Below are positions 21,192 to 34,153 of a stretch of DNA of 34,153 nucleotides, piece by piece (the stretch's first letter is position 1; the number at the start of each line of letters is the position of its first letter). The position numbers and the translations under genes are program-made. The DNA is from Planctomycetota bacterium (GTDB lineage: Bacteria; Planctomycetota; JADGBV01), in NCBI GenBank assembly GCA_015231345.1, contig JADGBV010000005.1, forward strand, positions 1 to 34,153. Direction: 5' to 3'. The notes under the pieces were generated by a model. It had not been told where the DNA came from. It did no database searches and saw nothing but the letters and a program-made list of their open reading frames with translations.

Positions 21192-24100
21192 ATGACTCAT
21201 CCCGAGCCCAATAGCCCTCAGAGGCTTAATCAGGAAATCCAAGAGATGATGCTTCAAGGCATCAGTCTGGACTCAACTCTGGCAGATCCTGTTATCGATT
21301 ATCTCCTTGCCGAGCAAAAAAAGAAGAGCGACTCGCCTGATTTAGAGGGACTTATCCCCTTATACGAGAATCTCTATGAGAAAGAACGGGCATTAGAAGA
21401 GAGCAATTCAGAGCCGCCACGGGGTAACCTTTCTCAGTTCAGAAATAAACTTAAGCTTCATAGCCTTAAGCTGATTCAGCAACAAAAAGACAAACTAACC
21501 TACTCCCATTTACCAACACCCAATAGTTTAGGCCAGGATTTCACCCTCCCATCAGTGGGTCTTCCTGAGGCTGTTCACTATGATGAGCTCACGGAAAATT
21601 ACCTGGAATGCGTAGCCGACTTGCGATTTCTGGCCCAAAACGAACATTTATGGACCCCTGAAATCGAAGACTCTCTAGAGAAGACTAGAAATTCGCTGAG
21701 CAAAGCTTTAGGGGAATGGCTCAACTTCAGAAAAGGCTTGCAAGAACTGGAGGATGGAGCGAAAAGCCCTGAAGTTGTCGATCAAATCAATTCTCTCGAA
21801 GTGCTTTTCAAAGAGAATTCACAATGGCAGCACAATGAATTACACCAGGCTGTTATGGAGAAGTTTCCGACAGACTCGGCTCTTACCTGGCTAGGCATTG
21901 CCGCTCTATGTGAAGACTATCCCAAAGAAAGCATAGCCTTAATGTCCAGGGCCAAGAACTGGATGGCCCTTCAACTCCTAACCCATAAGTCACCCAGTCA
22001 GCAGCACGAGCTTCGCTGGCAAGCCTCTCTCTGCTTAGGTTTAGGTGCACCGTGCCAAGCTGAACTCAAATTAACCCAACACTGGCTGAAAGAAAAGCTC
22101 AATAATCTATGTGGCTGGGACAAAGCCAATAATCTATGGGATGAAAACCAAGCAGAAATAGAAGGCTTAGTCAGCGCACAAGCTCTCGAAGTGAGTCAAG
22201 GAAAAGTCAGCGATGAGGCCGATTTTCGACGTAGAGTTCTGAGTAAAATCGATGACCAACCAAGCACTCCCTCCGATAAAGTGGTCGCAATGGAAAGCCT
22301 AGTGGAAATGGGTACGGAGGTGGCAATGGCCGAAGAAGGCCTAAGCGACCTACAGGAGCCTATCGCCCAAGCCATTATGGATAAAGGGCTCGGTAAAGTG
22401 AATATTCCCAAAAACATCAAACTGAAGGACCATGAAGGGCCCAAAAGCAAAACGAAACACAAGGTAAGAGAAGCAAGCCCCACTATTTGGACAACCACTA
22501 TTTGGCCTTTTATACAACAAAACCTTGTTCTGGTCCTGGCTCCAACCTTTATCTTTTTTGGCATTTTATTACTGCTCTTTTCCCTTTGGGACCAACAACC
22601 CGCCGTGCGCTATGCTTTGGCGCCAGCCACTTTAGTGGCAGCGGCTTGGGCGCTACATCGCATTGCCCTTTGGTTAAAAAATCAGAAATTGCCCTCTTCT
22701 GTCCCTGTGGCTCTCTTGCAGGGAGTGAGTGTATTATTAGCTCCCATGAGTTTCCTTATGGTGGCCCTCTTATCATCTGATTTTGAAATTAACACTTCAC
22801 TTAGAGTTGGAGGTTCAATAGCTCTCAGTGCGGCATTACTTGGTTCTTGGCGTTGGTTATTCAAAAGTATAGCACTAAGTTCTCATAAAGAATCCGCCTC
22901 CCGCTATTGTCGAAATCTACTTATCATCAATGCCCTTGTATTACTCCTCCCCCTGACCCGATTTGGAGGTCTAGAAGGAAGTGTCATTTCGGATTTTTGG
23001 ATGCGCTCCCTGCTGGTCTCTGGTTTCTACGGAGGCTTCGCCTGGCTACTGTTCGACCTACGCTCAGTCTTTTACAAAGTGATGGACGATAAAATCCTTC
23101 AACAAAAAGTCATTCCTCTGTTCTACACCTTAACAAGCTTAGGAACTTTCGCCTTAGTCTGGACTTTAACCCATATCCGACTTGAAGCCTTACCTGAGGT
23201 CCACACCTACGGCCCCTTGCTTATAATGCTGGCCGCCCTTCTAGGCATGCTGGAGCAGCGACTTAAAAGCCTGCAAGAATCGGCAAGCCAATTCAAAAGC
23301 ATGGCCTATATGGCCATATTCCTCATAATACTAGGTAATGCCCTGAGTTTATCCCAACCCTATGTGAGAAGCCTTGCTCTCTTCCTATCGGCTGGAGTCT
23401 GCCTACTTCAGGGCAAAAGGCGACAAGATAGCCTTCACAGCGAAATCGCCATGGCCTTATTTTCACTCGCTACAGCTTCGCTATCTTTATTACCCTGGTT
23501 CAGTCCAGTCACCTTCCCCTATTTAATGCTAGCCATTTCCCTTGTCTGGGGAGGGCTTTCCTGCCGCCAAAGTTCACTTCTACTAAAAGCTGCTGCTAGT
23601 AAAGTCTATTTCCCCATATTAACCTTATCCCTTCTCACTTCACTGATAGGGCAATACCACTTAGCTGACCCCACGTTGCCATGGGGAATTGCCTTTTTGG
23701 CAATGGGCCTACAAGCTGGTTATTTTGCCAGCAAAAAGGATAGCTTATTTCAGCTTCATGCAGCATTAAGTATGATATGCCTCTCTTTGCCCTACTTGGG
23801 CTTCGCTAATATAAATGCTCATTCACTGCAGGGCAATACCATGACTTTTGCTTTATCCTTAGTGGGATTAGTTTGGTTAGGCCTATGCACTAAAAGCCAA
23901 CAAAACCTCATTAAAGATTCTCGCTCAACGGTTTTATGGGCTTTGGGAATGATGGCTCTAAGTTTAATGATATCAAGTATATTCAGTGGCGATGGCAAGG
24001 GAGCCGAAGGGTTGCAACAGCAATTCATTATATTAGGCCCCCTTCTCATGAGCGCTATTATGCTAATGGCAGCATATTTTGCCCAGTCCTATTTACCCGT

Positions 24101-27100
24101 CATCGCATCACTCGTTATCATCATTTTGATATTTCCAGAAATCAAAGATCACTACAGCATTGTAATGAAAAGCGGATTGGGTTCGTCCTGCTCTGCACTG
24201 GGATTTTTGCTACTAACCACGTTCCTGTCCCGGTGGTCATTCCTAACTCGAGAACCTAAGGGGGATCTGATCTGGAGACAAAAGGAGTTCCCCTTAAGAG
24301 CTAAAGGTGCAGCTCTATTCGTAAAGCCTTTACTTGCTGCCGCTTTATTTTTAGTGCTTAGAGTCATATCATGGTCTTACCCCACAATTACAATAGCCAG
24401 TCCCATAGGAGAAGTGGGAGAAAAGACCTTATTGGCTTTAATGCTGGGAGGCTGCTCACTACACTGGTTAGCTCGAAGTTATTCCCGCCCCATCCTCATA
24501 CCTTTGGGTCAGATCGCTCTTTCAGTGGGAGCCATCCATGGATCAATACTCATGATCGGCTGGCACTCCCTAGCCTGGGCCTTACCATTAGTTTGGCTAC
24601 TTTGTGAAGCGCCTCTTAAGGCCTACTTAGTCTTGGGCAAAACTCAACCAGAAGAGAGAGGGAGTCATCTTCAATCCGGCTTACGATATGTCTATATTAC
24701 GGTGAGCCTTTTTGCAATATACCCCCTCTACAGCTTAGATTTATGGACAACACCCCTCTCCACTTGGGGATGTCTACTCTCTTTAACAATACCGTCATTA
24801 CTAGCACTAAAGATCGGCTGGAGAAAAACCAACAAAGTGCTACTTTACGCTGCATTTCTACTCCTATGGCAAGTCATGGCTCTTGCAGTTACGGGAGGCG
24901 ATCCTTGCTATTTATTACTAGAAGAGGAAAGCCTATTCCCCTTGGGAACAGCCCTTCTTATTGGTGGATTAAGCTTACTCAACTTTTATTGGGAGCGACG
25001 CTTTGAACTCACACGATACCGCTGGTTGACGAGTCTTTTACCATGCTTAGCACTTATTTGTCTCGTGGCATCCACTAGGAATATACTTAACCTTATCAAT
25101 ATAAGCAGCATTTATAGCACTATCCATTCGGTAGAATTGGCGCTCTGGGCATTCTCTTTATTCATTATAGGTCGCTTCCTAAACCTATCAGCTCTTTGGC
25201 TGATTTCCCTTGGCATTCTAAGTATACTTATATACGGTTTGCCTGATTCTCTCAAGGCATTGCCTCTGGCCAGTTTAAGTGTCGCTTTGGCAGGGCTATC
25301 GTCTCTTATCAGTAAATACCCAATCTTATCACAACCTCGCTACCCTTTCCTGGGCGAAAAGACCTCAAGCGTACGTCCTCTCTTCCTACTACCAGCTTCT
25401 TCCTTAGCACTTTCTATTGTAGTGATCCTATTATCTTTTCGCCAAGTCCCTGAGGTCATGACCATAGAGTCCTGCTTGGCACTACTTCCCCTGCTCATCT
25501 CCGCTTACTTTGCTGCACCTTGCCTGACAATGAATCGTGCAACAACAGTGGCCTTAGCCTGGCTTGTCCTTTTATTAGGAGTCTTTTTCTCTCTGAATGA
25601 CTACTACCCAGTAAGTGTTTGGTTTGGCAGCATTAAGACCCCTCATGTTATTATGGTAGCTCTCAGTTCATTCCTTTTGAGCACAGCTCTATTCAATCGC
25701 TTCATCTCAATCAAAAGTCCTTCTTTCCACCTATTACGCTCTCTTTCTGCTTTCCTTATTATCCTCCTCGCAGTGCTTACCTATTTGGCCACTCGCCAAG
25801 TTGAAGGGCTTCCCTGGCCTCGTTTATTAACAACAGGAACAGTTTGCTTATTGGCAGCATTACATTTTCGCTTTATGGTGCCCGATGAAAAGAAATCGCA
25901 AACTTATGCTTTATTTACTTGTGGCATCACCATGAGCATGATGAGTTTTGCCTTTTTATTTCTGGAATACATCTTGGGAAAAGAGGCTTCTCCTGAAACG
26001 GCCTTTAGACTATTAGCGATTCCTCCCGCTTTTTTCTTTCTTCGGAGTGAGAAAAATCATTTTCAAAATCAGATTGTTCAATCTTCCCGCAATTCAGCCT
26101 TAGTCCTTTTATTGATACTTCTTGGCTTTTATGTCTATCAGCCCCTTTTAAAGTTTATGATGTTTCCCGATCTGGACTTAAGCATTCTTCATTATAGCAT
26201 TCATGCCCTCGTTCCCCTATTGGTAGGTTTTGCCCTATTGCGCCTTCATGCCCTAGGCACAGACCTCAATTGGTGTATTCCCGGCTTAATCAGTGTGAAT
26301 GCAGGGTTATTCTTCCTGATTAGCAGAGCCCTTAATTGGTCTTTTCTCCAAGATACCGGAAAGATAAGTTTACTCGCAAGTGGGTTTAGTCTGCTTTTAC
26401 TTCTACTCCTACACCTCCCATCACCAGTGCGCAAAGGCTTACAGGCCCTGGGACGTTTTAATAATGATCAGTGGGCAGTTTTACTCAGAGTGAATGATTT
26501 ATTTTGTGCATTGGCTTGCCATATTCTATTTCTCCAATCTCTACTAAAAGACAGCCCACATTATCAATATAACCTAATTTCCCTTGCTCTTTTTTGTTTT
26601 GTCGTAGGTCATTTCCGCAAACGCACTTTCTTTTTTCACTTAGCCCTTATTGAAATCGCTATAGTGGTGACCACTATCACAGGAACCCTATGGCCGAGCT
26701 TGCTCTTTTATCTTGCCCTTTTTGTGGCAGAACGATTCTATTGGCATAAATTCTTTCCTAAAAGAGAAGGTTTCTTTCAATTATGGATACTTATTGCTAC
26801 CGTCTTAGTCTTAGGCGTGCTATGGGGAGAGAGTTACAGTAAAAGCATAAGAGGATTCACCATGGGTTTGTTATGGTTAGGCGCTCTAGCTGTACCTCTA
26901 GGGGTCAAAGAAAGCTTAGGACGAATGGTACGAATATTAGGCAGTCTAATCTTATATCTCCCCTCTTTAATGTTTTTCCTCATAGGAGGCCTTAGTCAGT
27001 GGGGTAATATTCCTCGATCCTTACTAATAATAGCCGCGACCACTGCTTTTATTCAGTTTAAAGGTCAAGAAGCTGCCAGTTGGTTTACATGGAGAAGCAA

Positions 27101-28187
27101 GAAACGCCTACACTTACTCGATGCTGCTTTATCCTTCTTAAATGGGAAATATGCTCGATCCTTATTGACCTTGCAGCTTATTGTTAGCCTGGCTGTTCTC
27201 GCCTTTCAGGTGGCAATGATCCAAGAAGTCTTTGGCATACCTAGTTATGCTTTTCGCAGTTTATACATACTGCATATTGGTTTAATTGCCTATTGGGGTT
27301 TCATGGCTCGTAAAAGCGGCCAGATAATGCCCACTCTAATCACTCAAACCCTTTTAGGAGTTTTAGTCGAAGCCCTTCTTCATCATAGCATTACTCACTT
27401 TGCCTTTGAGCAAAGTGATGCTTTGCGTATGTTCACCTGGACTGCCATTGCATTTGGAGCCACTGCCATGGAGCCCTTTATGCAAAAATCTGAACGTGGA
27501 GTCCTTCTACCCATCAGGTTTTCCTTAATCGCCCTCCCACTCATTACTGCTGGCTATGCCTTTGCGTACCCTGGAGCTAGGGAGCATTTACCACTCGTCA
27601 TCATGCTCTACTCGGTGCTTTTTAGCTGGAAAGCAGCCAGTACAAAGGACCGCTTCTCATTAGGTTATGCCTTTATTGGTTATACCGCCTGCCTACTTAT
27701 GTACTTCTCCCGTCATCAAATTTTTAATATCCAAGCCTACTTAACACCCTGCTGTATCACCCTATTGATTCTTGTTCAGGTTTTTCGCGATCGGACTTCT
27801 CAGTTCACAGCCAACCTTGTGCGCGGAGCAGTGCTTTTTGCCTTAATGGGACATGCTCTTTACGAGGCCATCATCCATAACATCCACTCTCCACTACCAC
27901 ACTTGATTGTATTAGGAGTGAGTTGCCTATTACTCGCCGTTGCTGCTGGGTTTAGAATCCGTATTTTCGCTTTCACCGGACTTCTTTGCCTACTCAGCGA
28001 CTTATTAGCTCTTTTGGTATTAGTGATTAGCAATATGGACGAATCAGGACTTCGCTTAATTCTAGGCCTAGTGCTCACCTTAGGAGGAGGTTTGCTGTTG
28101 AGCTCTTATATATTATACCGAAAACATAAAGATTTTGTAGATAAATTGACCTTATCTCTCAAAACTCGTTTTAAATCTTGGGAGTAG
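21192..28187 (+). CDS. Giant polytopic membrane protein of unknown function (2331 aa)
   Basis: Single uninterrupted ORF. About 430-residue charged N-terminal region, then about 1900 residues of near-continuous hydrophobic segments. First TM block (LVLAPTFIFFGILLLLFSLWDQQPAVRYALAPATLVAAAWALHRIALWLKNQ) resembles DUF2157/DUF2339-type membrane proteins. Confidence 0.85.
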   Translation: MTHPEPNSPQRLNQEIQEMMLQGISLDSTLADPVIDYLLAEQKKKSDSPDLEGLIPLYENLYEKERALEESNSEPPRGNLSQFRNKLKLHSLKLIQQQKDKLTYSHLPTPNSLGQDFTLPSVGLPEAVHYDELTENYLECVADLRFLAQNEHLWTPEIEDSLEKTRNSLSKALGEWLNFRKGLQELEDGAKSPEVVDQINSLEVLFKENSQWQHNELHQAVMEKFPTDSALTWLGIAALCEDYPKESIALMSRAKNWMALQLLTHKSPSQQHELRWQASLCLGLGAPCQAELKLTQHWLKEKLNNLCGWDKANNLWDENQAEIEGLVSAQALEVSQGKVSDEADFRRRVLSKIDDQPSTPSDKVVAMESLVEMGTEVAMAEEGLSDLQEPIAQAIMDKGLGKVNIPKNIKLKDHEGPKSKTKHKVREASPTIWTTTIWPFIQQNLVLVLAPTFIFFGILLLLFSLWDQQPAVRYALAPATLVAAAWALHRIALWLKNQKLPSSVPVALLQGVSVLLAPMSFLMVALLSSDFEINTSLRVGGSIALSAALLGSWRWLFKSIALSSHKESASRYCRNLLIINALVLLLPLTRFGGLEGSVISDFWMRSLLVSGFYGGFAWLLFDLRSVFYKVMDDKILQQKVIPLFYTLTSLGTFALVWTLTHIRLEALPEVHTYGPLLIMLAALLGMLEQRLKSLQESASQFKSMAYMAIFLIILGNALSLSQPYVRSLALFLSAGVCLLQGKRRQDSLHSEIAMALFSLATASLSLLPWFSPVTFPYLMLAISLVWGGLSCRQSSLLLKAAASKVYFPILTLSLLTSLIGQYHLADPTLPWGIAFLAMGLQAGYFASKKDSLFQLHAALSMICLSLPYLGFANINAHSLQGNTMTFALSLVGLVWLGLCTKSQQNLIKDSRSTVLWALGMMALSLMISSIFSGDGKGAEGLQQQFIILGPLLMSAIMLMAAYFAQSYLPVIASLVIIILIFPEIKDHYSIVMKSGLGSSCSALGFLLLTTFLSRWSFLTREPKGDLIWRQKEFPLRAKGAALFVKPLLAAALFLVLRVISWSYPTITIASPIGEVGEKTLLALMLGGCSLHWLARSYSRPILIPLGQIALSVGAIHGSILMIGWHSLAWALPLVWLLCEAPLKAYLVLGKTQPEERGSHLQSGLRYVYITVSLFAIYPLYSLDLWTTPLSTWGCLLSLTIPSLLALKIGWRKTNKVLLYAAFLLLWQVMALAVTGGDPCYLLLEEESLFPLGTALLIGGLSLLNFYWERRFELTRYRWLTSLLPCLALICLVASTRNILNLINISSIYSTIHSVELALWAFSLFIIGRFLNLSALWLISLGILSILIYGLPDSLKALPLASLSVALAGLSSLISKYPILSQPRYPFLGEKTSSVRPLFLLPASSLALSIVVILLSFRQVPEVMTIESCLALLPLLISAYFAAPCLTMNRATTVALAWLVLLLGVFFSLNDYYPVSVWFGSIKTPHVIMVALSSFLLSTALFNRFISIKSPSFHLLRSLSAFLIILLAVLTYLATRQVEGLPWPRLLTTGTVCLLAALHFRFMVPDEKKSQTYALFTCGITMSMMSFAFLFLEYILGKEASPETAFRLLAIPPAFFFLRSEKNHFQNQIVQSSRNSALVLLLILLGFYVYQPLLKFMMFPDLDLSILHYSIHALVPLLVGFALLRLHALGTDLNWCIPGLISVNAGLFFLISRALNWSFLQDTGKISLLASGFSLLLLLLLHLPSPVRKGLQALGRFNNDQWAVLLRVNDLFCALACHILFLQSLLKDSPHYQYNLISLALFCFVVGHFRKRTFFFHLALIEIAIVVTTITGTLWPSLLFYLALFVAERFYWHKFFPKREGFFQLWILIATVLVLGVLWGESYSKSIRGFTMGLLWLGALAVPLGVKESLGRMVRILGSLILYLPSLMFFLIGGLSQWGNIPRSLLIIAATTAFIQFKGQEAASWFTWRSKKRLHLLDAALSFLNGKYARSLLTLQLIVSLAVLAFQVAMIQEVFGIPSYAFRSLYILHIGLIAYWGFMARKSGQIMPTLITQTLLGVLVEALLHHSITHFAFEQSDALRMFTWTAIAFGATAMEPFMQKSERGVLLPIRFSLIALPLITAGYAFAYPGAREHLPLVIMLYSVLFSWKAASTKDRFSLGYAFIGYTACLLMYFSRHQIFNIQAYLTPCCITLLILVQVFRDRTSQFTANLVRGAVLFALMGHALYEAIIHNIHSPLPHLIVLGVSCLLLAVAAGFRIRIFAFTGLLCLLSDLLALLVLVISNMDESGLRLILGLVLTLGGGLLLSSYILYRKHKDFVDKLTLSLKTRFKSWE

Positions 28188-29969: not shown

Positions 29970-30230
29970 GTGCCTTTGCTTAATTCTTCTTTAAGCGCTT
30001 CGGGTAAAGCATATCAAGGCGATCACATCATTGACCCTCGAAACAAAAAGCGAGAATACAAGCATATGAGAGTATGGATCCATCACGAACAAGCTTCCTA
30101 CAGTGACGCTTTAGCCACTGCAGGCATGACTATGGATATAAACGAATTGAGGAAACTCAAAAATAATTGTGAGGGATTGATCGCTATTTGGATTTTAGGC
30201 TTAGAAAGCCAACTGGAGGAGATAAAATGA
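29970..30230 (+). CDS. Small uncharacterised protein (86 aa), coupled to the downstream cytochrome/ankyrin gene
   Basis: Ends in TGA overlapping the downstream ATG as ATGA; GTG start uncertain. No family recognised. Confidence 0.45.
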   Translation: MPLLNSSLSASGKAYQGDHIIDPRNKKREYKHMRVWIHHEQASYSDALATAGMTMDINELRKLKNNCEGLIAIWILGLESQLEEIK

Positions 30231-31231
30231 GAGCATGTCGAGTAATAGTATTATTTATTCTTTTGACCCATATCGGGCTAAAAACCCATGCTGGTTTTTT
30301 TGCTCAAAAGGTTTGGCCTATCTTAAAAAATCATTGTGTTAAGTGTCATGGCCCAGACAAGAAAGGGCTTAATGGGCGGACAAAAATAGCCAAAGGGATT
30401 TTGCGTTTACATCATGCAGAGGGCATACTCAAAGGTGGATTGAGTGGTCAGTGTGTCATTCCTGGCAAACCTGAGCTAAGCACATTGTACACCACCACTA
30501 TTCTTCCTGCCGATCATCAAGATAGAATGCCAGCGAGGGGGCCCAAAATTTCTGCAGAACAATCTAAAACCCTTAAAAAATGGATCGCTGATGGCGCAAA
30601 GTTTGATGGTTGGGAAGATGAGCAAAGCTCTGCTCCCAAAACGTCTGCTCAACCTTACATACCTAAGACAAAAAGCCTGCGGGAGGCTATCGCTAAAAAA
30701 GATTTACAAGGCCTTGAAAGTCATATTCGCCAACAAAAACAAGTTGACCTTCAAGCAAAAGGCGGCTTTACCGCCTTACATTATGCTGTGATGAAGAATT
30801 TTGAAGAAGCCGTGGACATGTTGCTAAAAATGGGAGCCAACCCCAATACCCTCTCCTCAAGTAAATTAAGCCCTTTTCATTATGCCATCAAAAGGGCTCC
30901 CCTCTCTATTATTAAAAAGTTGCTCAAAAATGGAGCAGATTTAAAGCTAGCCAATGCTGATGGCTGGTCTCCTTTGCATATTGCAAGTGCTCATGACCGC
31001 GTTGAAGTGGTTGATTTTTTACTGGCTCAAGGCGCTGATGTCAAAGCCTTAAGCAATGCTGGAGGCACAGCCCTCCATGAAGCCTCTGTTAGTGGTAGTC
31101 GCGAGTTAATTCTCTTGTTGCTCAAAAATGGGGTGAACCCTAAGGCCCTTTCTCATGATGGCAAAAAAGCATTAGACCATGCTAAAGAATACAAGAATAA
31201 GGATGCCATAGAGCTTTTGCAGAAAAAATAA
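30227..31231 (+). CDS. Planctomycete-type cytochrome c (PSCyt1-like) fused to ankyrin repeats
   Basis: RBS ggagg then ATG at 30227; FFAQKVWPILKNHCVKCHGPDKKG has CxxCH; VIPGKPELSTLYTTTILPADHQDRMPARGPKISAEQSKTLKKWIADGA is PSCyt1-like; then repeats such as GGFTALHYAVMKNFEEAVDMLLKMGANPNTL and DGWSPLHIASAHDRVEVVDFLLAQGADVKAL. Confidence 0.92.
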   Translation: MRACRVIVLFILLTHIGLKTHAGFFAQKVWPILKNHCVKCHGPDKKGLNGRTKIAKGILRLHHAEGILKGGLSGQCVIPGKPELSTLYTTTILPADHQDRMPARGPKISAEQSKTLKKWIADGAKFDGWEDEQSSAPKTSAQPYIPKTKSLREAIAKKDLQGLESHIRQQKQVDLQAKGGFTALHYAVMKNFEEAVDMLLKMGANPNTLSSSKLSPFHYAIKRAPLSIIKKLLKNGADLKLANADGWSPLHIASAHDRVEVVDFLLAQGADVKALSNAGGTALHEASVSGSRELILLLLKNGVNPKALSHDGKKALDHAKEYKNKDAIELLQKK

Positions 31232-31409: not shown

Positions 31410-31997
31410 GTGGCAAATTCTAGCCAAAACTACCTCCAAGAAAAAAGTGAACATACTGTTAAAGACGCTTTAGAATTATTTTCTAAAAAATCAGAGAAGA
31501 AGTATAAAGTTCAGTTAATAAGACCCTCTATCACTGCAGCCAAGAGCAATATTATAATCCCCATTTCTCTTCCTTTAGGACCAGCATACTTAGCGTCTTT
31601 TTTACTACAAGCTGGATACGATGTATCTATAGTAGATGGAATTGGCGAGGGAGTTGATAATGTAACCCTAGATGGTGAGAATAAAATATTCGGATTAACA
31701 AATAATCAAATTGTTGATTTAATAGACGAAGATGTTGATTTTGTAGGTTTATCTTGCATGTTTTCTGTACATTGGTGTTTTAATCGCGATTTGATAGAAA
31801 AAATTAAAATGAAAGTTCCTCATGCTAAAATTTGTGTAGGAGGAGAGCATGCAAGTGCTCTTCCCGAATATATATTGAATGATTGCAAGGCTGTAGATTA
31901 TGTTGTGGCAGGTGAAGGGGAATTAACTTTACTTAAACTCCTGTCTTTGCTCTGTGAGGAAAAAGAACCTATACCCTCTGGAGTTCATTATTTAGAC
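31410..31997 (+). pseudogene. 5' part of a B12-binding-domain radical SAM gene, split by the IS
   Basis: KVQLIRPSITAAKSNIIIPISLPLGPAYLASFLLQAGYDVSIVDGIGEG...DFVGLSCMFSVHW...AKICVGGEHASALPEYILNDCKAVDYVVAGEGELTLLKL. 196 codons from GTG 31410 to the IS edge; the ORF tail beyond 31997 is antisense IS sequence. Confidence 0.88.
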
Positions 31998-33620
31998 GAT
32001 TGGTGTCGTAAAATTCCTTTCAAAACACTGCACAACACCGCCATAGCTGCTCCACAGAATCCACCCAAGAGGCCCGAATTTTTACAAACTCTCGAAGCCA
32101 TCGATAGAAGACCACGGGCAATTCAGCCAGTCTATGTTCTCTTAGCAGCAACTCTCCTACATGGCGACCCTTTTTTTGAGTTTTTTCCAGAAGAGATTTC
32201 TGTCGCTTCTTTCTTCGTTTGATATGTTTATCGTTTATATTAATACCTTTTTCTTGTCTCTGAGAATTATCGTTTGATGGAGGGGTTTCCCGCTGAATTT
32301 TTCTGTTCAATATTAGTGATAAATTATGTGCTAGGCATAGAAAGTGAGCTTGTGCTTTTTCTGCTTCTGGTTTAGTAGCCCATGCTTTTTTTTCATTAAA
32401 TTTATGCTTAAATGTATTGTATGTTTTTTCAATATTCCATCTACATTTATATAGATATGCTATAACTCCTGGTCTTATTGTATGATTGAGGTTGGTTACA
32501 AAGTGGTATACAACTTCTGTATCTGGGCATTTATATGTGACTCTCCTCATTTGTGATCCACAAGAACTCCCGGTTACCATCTCGTCTTTCAGTACTCCGT
32601 GGTTAATAGGGTCGTTGCTGTCAAATGGGGGTTTACCAATTATCTGCAAATTATTTAGTTTCTTCTCTTTGGTAAGAAAGTATATTCCAGAATTCATTTT
32701 CCACTTAAACCATTGCATGAAGTCCATGCACGCTGAGTCCCATACCCAGAGAACCTTTCGGCCAACTTCAGCTGCTTGCCTGAGCTTTTCAATGTCTTGA
32801 CGCCTCAACATTCTTATATCACTTTCTTTTTTTCTCCAACCTCCGTATTCGGCTACATCGAGCTGAAATACCATATGGTTTCTCATGTTCCTACCGTAAA
32901 AATGTTGAGTTCCATATTTTTTACCTTTCACCATTTTTTCATGAACAGGTGCACCATGATAATGACCATCACCAGAGTAGATATCAAAATTATCTAAGTC
33001 TGAACAATCAGCAAATGGATCATCACAATAATCCCATGCATTTTTAGTTCGAGAAAGCTGTGTGCTTAACTCCTCAACGAATTTAAGCCGGCGTTTAGAC
33101 TTTAATGATGCAAAATAGTGTCCAACATGTGTAAAGGACTCTTGAGTAAGTGTTAAGTGTTGCAGGTGCCCTCTGCCACTTGCTTCTAATGACAATGCCC
33201 TCAATATACCTCCTCTTGCCCAATCCTCATCCGTAAGAGAACGACACTTCCTATGGTGAGAGTTCTTTTTGATTAATACACCAAGAGGCTCACAAAGCTT
33301 CTCTAAAGTGCCGGATAGATTATTACTCATAACTTTTGTTTCCTATAACATTAAAAAATCACTATGTGAAACAAATCTCGTTTTATGTTATTGGTCAAGC
33401 GGGTCCCAGTAAAAATATCGTCATTTTTTTGAGCAACACTTCTGTTTATACAGTAGTTCTACTAATGCCCTCGAGTTGATACGCCACACAACTATCCTCA
33501 GCAATACCTAGGAGGAAGTGGCAAATTTCACAAGAGAAAAGCAGTGCTCTAGTATTCCTCCAGACTCCCTTATATCAATGCTTTAGGGGGCATATTGCTT
33601 GTAAATTTACGACACCAATC
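31998..33620. mobile_element. Complete IS4-superfamily insertion sequence, 1623 bp, flanked by 8-bp TSD ATTTAGAC
   Basis: TIRs GATTGGTGTCGTAAAaTT (left) and GATTGGTGTCGTAAAtTT (reverse complement of right end); direct repeats ATTTAGAC at 31990-31997 and 33621-33628. Confidence 0.93.
32020..33330 (-). CDS. IS4-superfamily DDE transposase
   Basis: YKCRWNIEKTYNTFK matches Y-(2)-R-(3)-E-(6)-K; candidate catalytic Asp in YSGDGHYHG and VWVWDSACMDF-type contexts; contained within the TIRs. Confidence 0.92.
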   Translation of the reverse strand: MSNNLSGTLEKLCEPLGVLIKKNSHHRKCRSLTDEDWARGGILRALSLEASGRGHLQHLTLTQESFTHVGHYFASLKSKRRLKFVEELSTQLSRTKNAWDYCDDPFADCSDLDNFDIYSGDGHYHGAPVHEKMVKGKKYGTQHFYGRNMRNHMVFQLDVAEYGGWRKKESDIRMLRRQDIEKLRQAAEVGRKVLWVWDSACMDFMQWFKWKMNSGIYFLTKEKKLNNLQIIGKPPFDSNDPINHGVLKDEMVTGSSCGSQMRRVTYKCPDTEVVYHFVTNLNHTIRPGVIAYLYKCRWNIEKTYNTFKHKFNEKKAWATKPEAEKAQAHFLCLAHNLSLILNRKIQRETPPSNDNSQRQEKGININDKHIKRRKKRQKSLLEKTQKKGRHVGELLLREHRLAELPVVFYRWLREFVKIRASWVDSVEQLWRCCAVF

Positions 33621-33628
33621 ATTTAGAC

Positions 33629-34153
33629 ACAAAGGGACAGTATTACGATGGAGGATTAAGCCAAAGGGTGAGTGATTTTCAAAATCTTCCAAGACCTGCT
33701 TGGCATCTCGTTCCAATAGAAAATTATAGAAATTCACCTACAAGTCATGGTATCAATCGAGGCTTTAGCATGCCTATGCTAGCCTCAAGAGGATGCCCAT
33801 TCCAATGCACTTTTTGTTCTAGCCCCAAAATGTGGACAACAAGATATATCATGAGAGATTATATCGATGTCGTTGATGAAGTAGAAGAGTTAGTAAATAA
33901 GTATGGCATAGAAGGCGTTGACTTGTGTGACCTCACAGCATTCACGCAAAAAGCATGGGTTGCCTCGTTTTGTAAAGAAATTTTGAAACGAAATATTAGT
34001 GTGTATTGGCAATTACCTAGTGGAACAAGATCTGAAGCATTAGATGAAGAAACGCTAAATTATTTATATCAAATCAAATGCCACGATATGGTCTATGCAC
34101 CAGAAAGTGGCTCAGAAAAAACTTTGCAACAAATTAAAAAGAAAATCCACCTA
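33629..34153 (+). pseudogene. Downstream part of the split radical SAM gene (continues past the right edge)
   Basis: Not in the ORF track. Translation from 33629: TKGQYYDGGLSQRVSDFQNLPRPAWHLVPIENYRNSPTSHGINRGFSMPMLASRGCPFQCTFCSSPKMWTTRYIMRDYIDVVDEVEELVNKYGIEGVDLCDLTAFTQKAWVASFCKEILKRNISVYWQLPSGTRSEALDEETLNYLYQIKCHDMVYAPESGSEKTLQQIKKKIHL; CxxxCxxC at 33794-33817. Confidence 0.9.

Follow-up and report, generated by a model that had tools for sequence, protein, structure and literature searches.

The window analysed here, the whole contig C544 (34,153 nucleotides) of a Planctomycetota metagenome-assembled genome (bin of 588 contigs, 69% complete), very probably carries a class-1-type B12-binding radical SAM gene that was interrupted by an insertion sequence (IS) of the IS4 family. 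The insertion, the reading frame across it and the homology of the two gene parts are demonstrated below. Transposon interruption of a gene is an ordinary kind of event, and the more useful outcome of the analysis is that intact homologues define an unnamed family of B12-type radical SAM enzymes tied to sugar/glycan loci.

Results

An IS4-family element separates the two domains of the gene

The element lies between the B12-binding and radical SAM domains of the gene (Table 1). It is flanked exactly by a perfect repeat of ATTTAGAC and carries GATTGGTGTCGTAAA at either side, the two ends being identical at 15/15 positions and at 17 of the first 18, in full agreement with the IS and 8-bp target-site duplication described in the earlier note. 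Two given positions would show such a perfect 8-bp match by chance with a probability of about 1.5e-5, even when the inverted ends and the homology are left aside. Most of the length of the element is occupied by one intact transposase ORF.

Table 1. Features of the interrupted gene and of the inserted element (positions in the window).
Feature	Position	Strand	Basis
5' part of the gene: N-terminus and B12-binding domain, 196 aa, GTG start	31410..31997	+	PF02310, E 1.3e-17; 10/10 family-invariant residues kept
Misleading ORF, 270 aa (196 gene codons and 74 antisense IS codons)	31410..32222	+	ORF list
Target-site duplication ATTTAGAC, 8 bp, left copy	31990..31997	.	sequence repeat
IS4-family insertion sequence, 1,623 bp	31998..33620	- (transposase strand)	ends and duplication; transposase family
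Left inverted end GATTGGTGTCGTAAAATT	31998..32015	+	end comparison
Transposase, 436 aa, DDE with D121, D198 and YREK motif Y294-R297-E301-K308	32020..33330	-	PF01609, E 2.3e-8; motif scan
Right inverted end GATTGGTGTCGTAAATTT	33603..33620	-	end comparison
Target-site duplication ATTTAGAC, 8 bp, right copy	33621..33628	.	sequence repeat
3' part of the gene: radical SAM core with CPFQCTFC and MWTTR, 175 codons, ends at contig edge	33629..34153	+	PF04055, E 2.7e-8; 28/28 family-invariant residues kept

Members of the IS4 family have been defined by a single-ORF transposase with a Y(2)R(3)E(6)K motif and a D(60-110)D(100-150)E spacing; they duplicate about one helix turn of target (7-13 bp) and fall into seven subgroups, each with its own terminal consensus (PMC2266710). 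The window element shares the YREK motif, found by motif scan as YKCRWNIEKTYNTFK at transposase residues 294-308, and the DDE spacing, with spacers of 76 and 102 between D121, D198 and E301 (both D residues being assigned by motif only), as well as the single ORF of 436 aa and the 8-bp duplication. In contrast, its ends (GATTGG...) match none of the seven subgroup consensuses of 2008 (Table 1 in PMC2266710). No close relatives were found among 392 genomes of the phylum, a search of plasmids returned one weak match only (29%), and the bin contains no further copies apart from a 46%-identical partial transposase on contig C97. Because its ends fit no subgroup consensus and these genomes and plasmids yielded no close relative, the element looks, from its sequence, like a new IS4-family member outside the named subgroups. 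The C97 sequence (2253-2945, L122) has no recognisable ends and is a remnant of a related IS.

The gene can be read through the empty site

Once the element and one copy of the duplication are left out, the frame is continuous from ...GVHYLD to TKGQYY... and stays open for 196 + 175 = 371 codons up to the contig end, with no frameshift in the downstream half, exactly as had been proposed. The description of the element as cleanly excisable stands insofar as the ancestral reading is recoverable from the empty site, and is limited to this readability. The two parts were searched separately throughout, and were combined only as a single alignment row for the tree; their Pfam matches confirm the predicted order of a B12-binding domain followed by a radical SAM domain.

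The 270-aa ORF is indeed a chimera of gene and antisense IS codons, and automated annotation would yield this chimera plus a start-less fragment, so that one enzyme would be lost. The earlier note had added that annotation would miss the catalytic half. The radical SAM core does lie in the right part, but the catalytic half is itself incomplete on the contig, whose end truncates the gene: about two thirds are present and the C-terminal third is absent. Extension by overlap was attempted with the last 120 bases, which have no match elsewhere in the bin. As assembled, the gene can yield only the B12 domain followed by 74 nonsense residues, and the enzyme is therefore inactivated.

Uninterrupted homologues span the junction

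Homologues aligning continuously across residue 196, as the proposed reconstruction demands, are numerous: 104 uninterrupted homologues from many phyla contain both parts in a single ORF, many of them with zero net indel at the junction. In two of these (L031 and L037), the left alignment reaches residue 196 and the right one begins at residue 2. The homologue loci come from Planctomycetota, Rhodospirillales and other Alphaproteobacteria, Elusimicrobia, Omnitrophota, Rokubacteria, Polyangiaceae, Nitrospina and others; Magnetospirillum moscoviense (L039) and Minicystis rosea are cultured carriers. When placed alone on the tree, each part joined the same subclade (L031, L037, L038 and L039), with a support of 1.0 for the left part and 0.89 for the right part.

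Of the residues that 45 homologues have without exception, 38 fall within the two parts, and the window gene retains every one of them (10 in the left part and 28 in the right). The insertion therefore looks recent; at the sequence level, neither part gives any sign of later decay. For the closest homologue, L038, the AlphaFold model has a mean pLDDT of 89 and a pTM of 0.90. In this model the junction corresponds to a turn between strands 192-196 and 199-202, which form a short beta-hairpin linking both domains.

The bin also encodes an intact paralogue on contig C377 (11423-13021; L123, L022), with 37% identity to the left part and 44% to the right; a family-2 glycosyltransferase-cluster gene and a gene for a CitMHS-type transporter lie nearby. 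On contig C577 (24109-26544, L124), three B12-binding radical SAM-related frames are adjacent, two of which look like separate parts of one gene.

The homologues form an unnamed family of class-1 architecture

PF02310 followed by PF04055 on the two parts is the class-1 architecture, with which the predicted fold of L038 agrees. The cluster motif CxxxCxxC is present as CPFQCTFC and is invariant in the 45 homologues. The His of the DxHxxG motif is absent: the window gene has DGIG at this place, where His is not a common residue among the homologues either. In class-1 cobalamin radical SAM enzymes the cofactor is bound base-off and has no His ligand (PMC13331322), and the missing His is as expected for this class.

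Neither part of the gene, nor any of five intact homologues, reached a curated NCBIfam cut-off, and membership of the Sden_1168, BchE, HpnJ and AprD4 families was rejected on scores far under the cut-offs. The Sden_1168 family of B12-binding radical SAM P-methyltransferases (NF038361) has the same domain order and ranks first or close to first among the models, both for the two parts and for most of the intact homologues tested, but the latter score 126-175 bits against a cut-off of 575 and are thus non-members. The anaerobic Mg-protoporphyrin ester cyclase BchE (TIGR02026), of the same architecture, is also among the top models; however, homologues score 124-154 bits against a cut-off of 481, and no bacteriochlorophyll context is seen in the neighbourhoods examined.

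The nearest solved folds to the L038 model are MgmA, TsrM, AprD4, OxsB, CysS and TokK. The top fold matches, MgmA (9ccb) and TsrM (6wte), are cobalamin-dependent radical SAM methyltransferases, but their identity is only 16-21% and their substrates are a peptide or an amino acid. AprD4 (PDB 6fd2), a radical SAM 1,2-diol dehydratase whose substrate is the aminoglycoside precursor paromamine, is the top sequence match among solved structures and has high fold similarity and a sugar-type substrate, yet identity is about 20%, and scores are 53-90 bits against the NF033070 cut-off of 500. This diol dehydratase is not known to use B12, and it serves as a caution that a B12-binding fold alone is no proof of cobalamin binding. 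The intact homologues, with the hallmark TRGCPYQCTFCSNPxMWTTR, define a widespread, unnamed family of B12-binding radical SAM proteins.

The homologues lie near sugar and glycan genes

Within 10 kb, family-2 glycosyltransferase (GT2) genes are present at 22 of 33 homologue loci versus 5 of 40 control stretches; at a distance of up to 5 kb, the figures are 23/40 loci versus 5/80 controls. A weaker enrichment within 10 kb was seen for sugar nucleotidyltransferases, CMP-sugar-synthetase-like genes and DegT aminotransferases. The p-values of these comparisons are indicative, as all controls were taken from planctomycete genomes although the homologues span many phyla, and as homologue loci supplied the seeds for the HMMs. 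L038 is followed by genes for glucose-1-phosphate cytidylyltransferase and CDP-glucose 4,6-dehydratase, both over curated cut-offs, and genes for NeuB and a NeuC-NeuD fusion precede L035; CDP-glucose pathway genes beside one member and nonulosonic-acid genes beside another suggest concrete substrates. The left neighbours of the interrupted gene on the window contig include no glycan-synthesis genes. With the terms used, no literature on this radical SAM family in glycan loci was found.

The assembly gives no view past the right edge, where the earlier note thought that a pathway might continue; the surroundings of the homologues suggest sugar/glycan biosynthesis rather than a free-standing natural-product cluster. 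A role in sugar or glycan modification is favoured because the homologue loci are richer in glycan and nucleotide-sugar genes than the controls, and because of the specific neighbours of L038, L035 and the C377 paralogue; we consider the chances about even that the uninterrupted enzyme modifies a sugar, a nucleotide sugar or a surface-glycan precursor.

Discussion

Origin and extent of the interruption

Very probably, a cut-and-paste IS4-family element entered the gene at the short beta-hairpin between its B12-binding and radical SAM domains and duplicated 8 bp of target on entry. The uninterrupted enzyme would have held base-off cobalamin without a His ligand and a SAM-cleaving 4Fe-4S cluster, and may have modified, probably by methylation or rearrangement, a nucleotide sugar or surface-glycan precursor. 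We give somewhat less than even weight to a broader reading: the unnamed family would modify nucleotide sugars or surface glycans in a way that has not been described, for instance by methylating a deoxy- or nonulosonic sugar at carbon or by rearranging its ring, and one copy in this planctomycete would have been knocked out, possibly by two different transposons.

The second transposon concerns contig C466, where positions ~303-680 (L121, C466:1-680) encode an orphan C-terminus of the same family, directly adjoining the end of an IS that matches IS4/Tn5-type models and differs from the window element. This second element is multi-copy, as 77-bp copies of its end close three other contigs. The gene could thus be a doubly broken pseudogene, cut again about 45 codons past the contig end, with its C-terminus on C466. 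Placed alone, the C466 fragment joins the same subclade as the window parts (support 0.88), whereas the intact C377 paralogue falls outside it. However, a joint tree including the non-overlapping fragments placed the C466 fragment elsewhere, and rank correlations of bit scores over 103 homologues do not discriminate a link between C466 and the window. The window contig stops short of the C466 element and has no end in common with another contig of the bin, about 45 codons (by alignment to L022) are unseen between the two, and a third family member from the same subclade is an equally possible source of the fragment. On balance, a second break comes close to an even chance while falling just short of it.

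The insertion might also be polymorphic, some cells carrying the uninterrupted gene and the assembly representing only the occupied form. The perfect duplication, intact transposase and undecayed flanks indicate a recent insertion, and the source genome is a metagenome bin, but the assembly contains one form only, and we regard polymorphism as rather unlikely. Far less probable is that the two parts retain a use, for example in a split or regulated enzyme, or that the IS acts as a programmed switch. The invariant residues kept in both parts would fit such a function, but the right part lacks a start codon where the family alignment would place one, the earliest candidate (GTG at 33668) lies inside the conserved region, promoter-like sites for it are no commoner than in shuffled sequences, and no homologue was seen split like the window gene.

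Other genes of the window

At the left edge of the window, a 183-aa ORF (253-804) corresponds to the N-terminal part only of a GH2 glycosidase and ends at a stop before the contig edge, indicating a truncated or frameshifted gene. A 2,331-aa ORF (21192-28187) matches no Pfam or NCBIfam model. Positions 30188-31231, just before the interrupted gene, encode a planctomycete cytochrome-C-like domain (PSCyt1) fused with ankyrin repeats. Between 831 and 18940, a sulfatase, GH97, two adjacent GH32 enzymes, two sigma-70-type regulators and a FecR-like protein make up a polysaccharide-use region.
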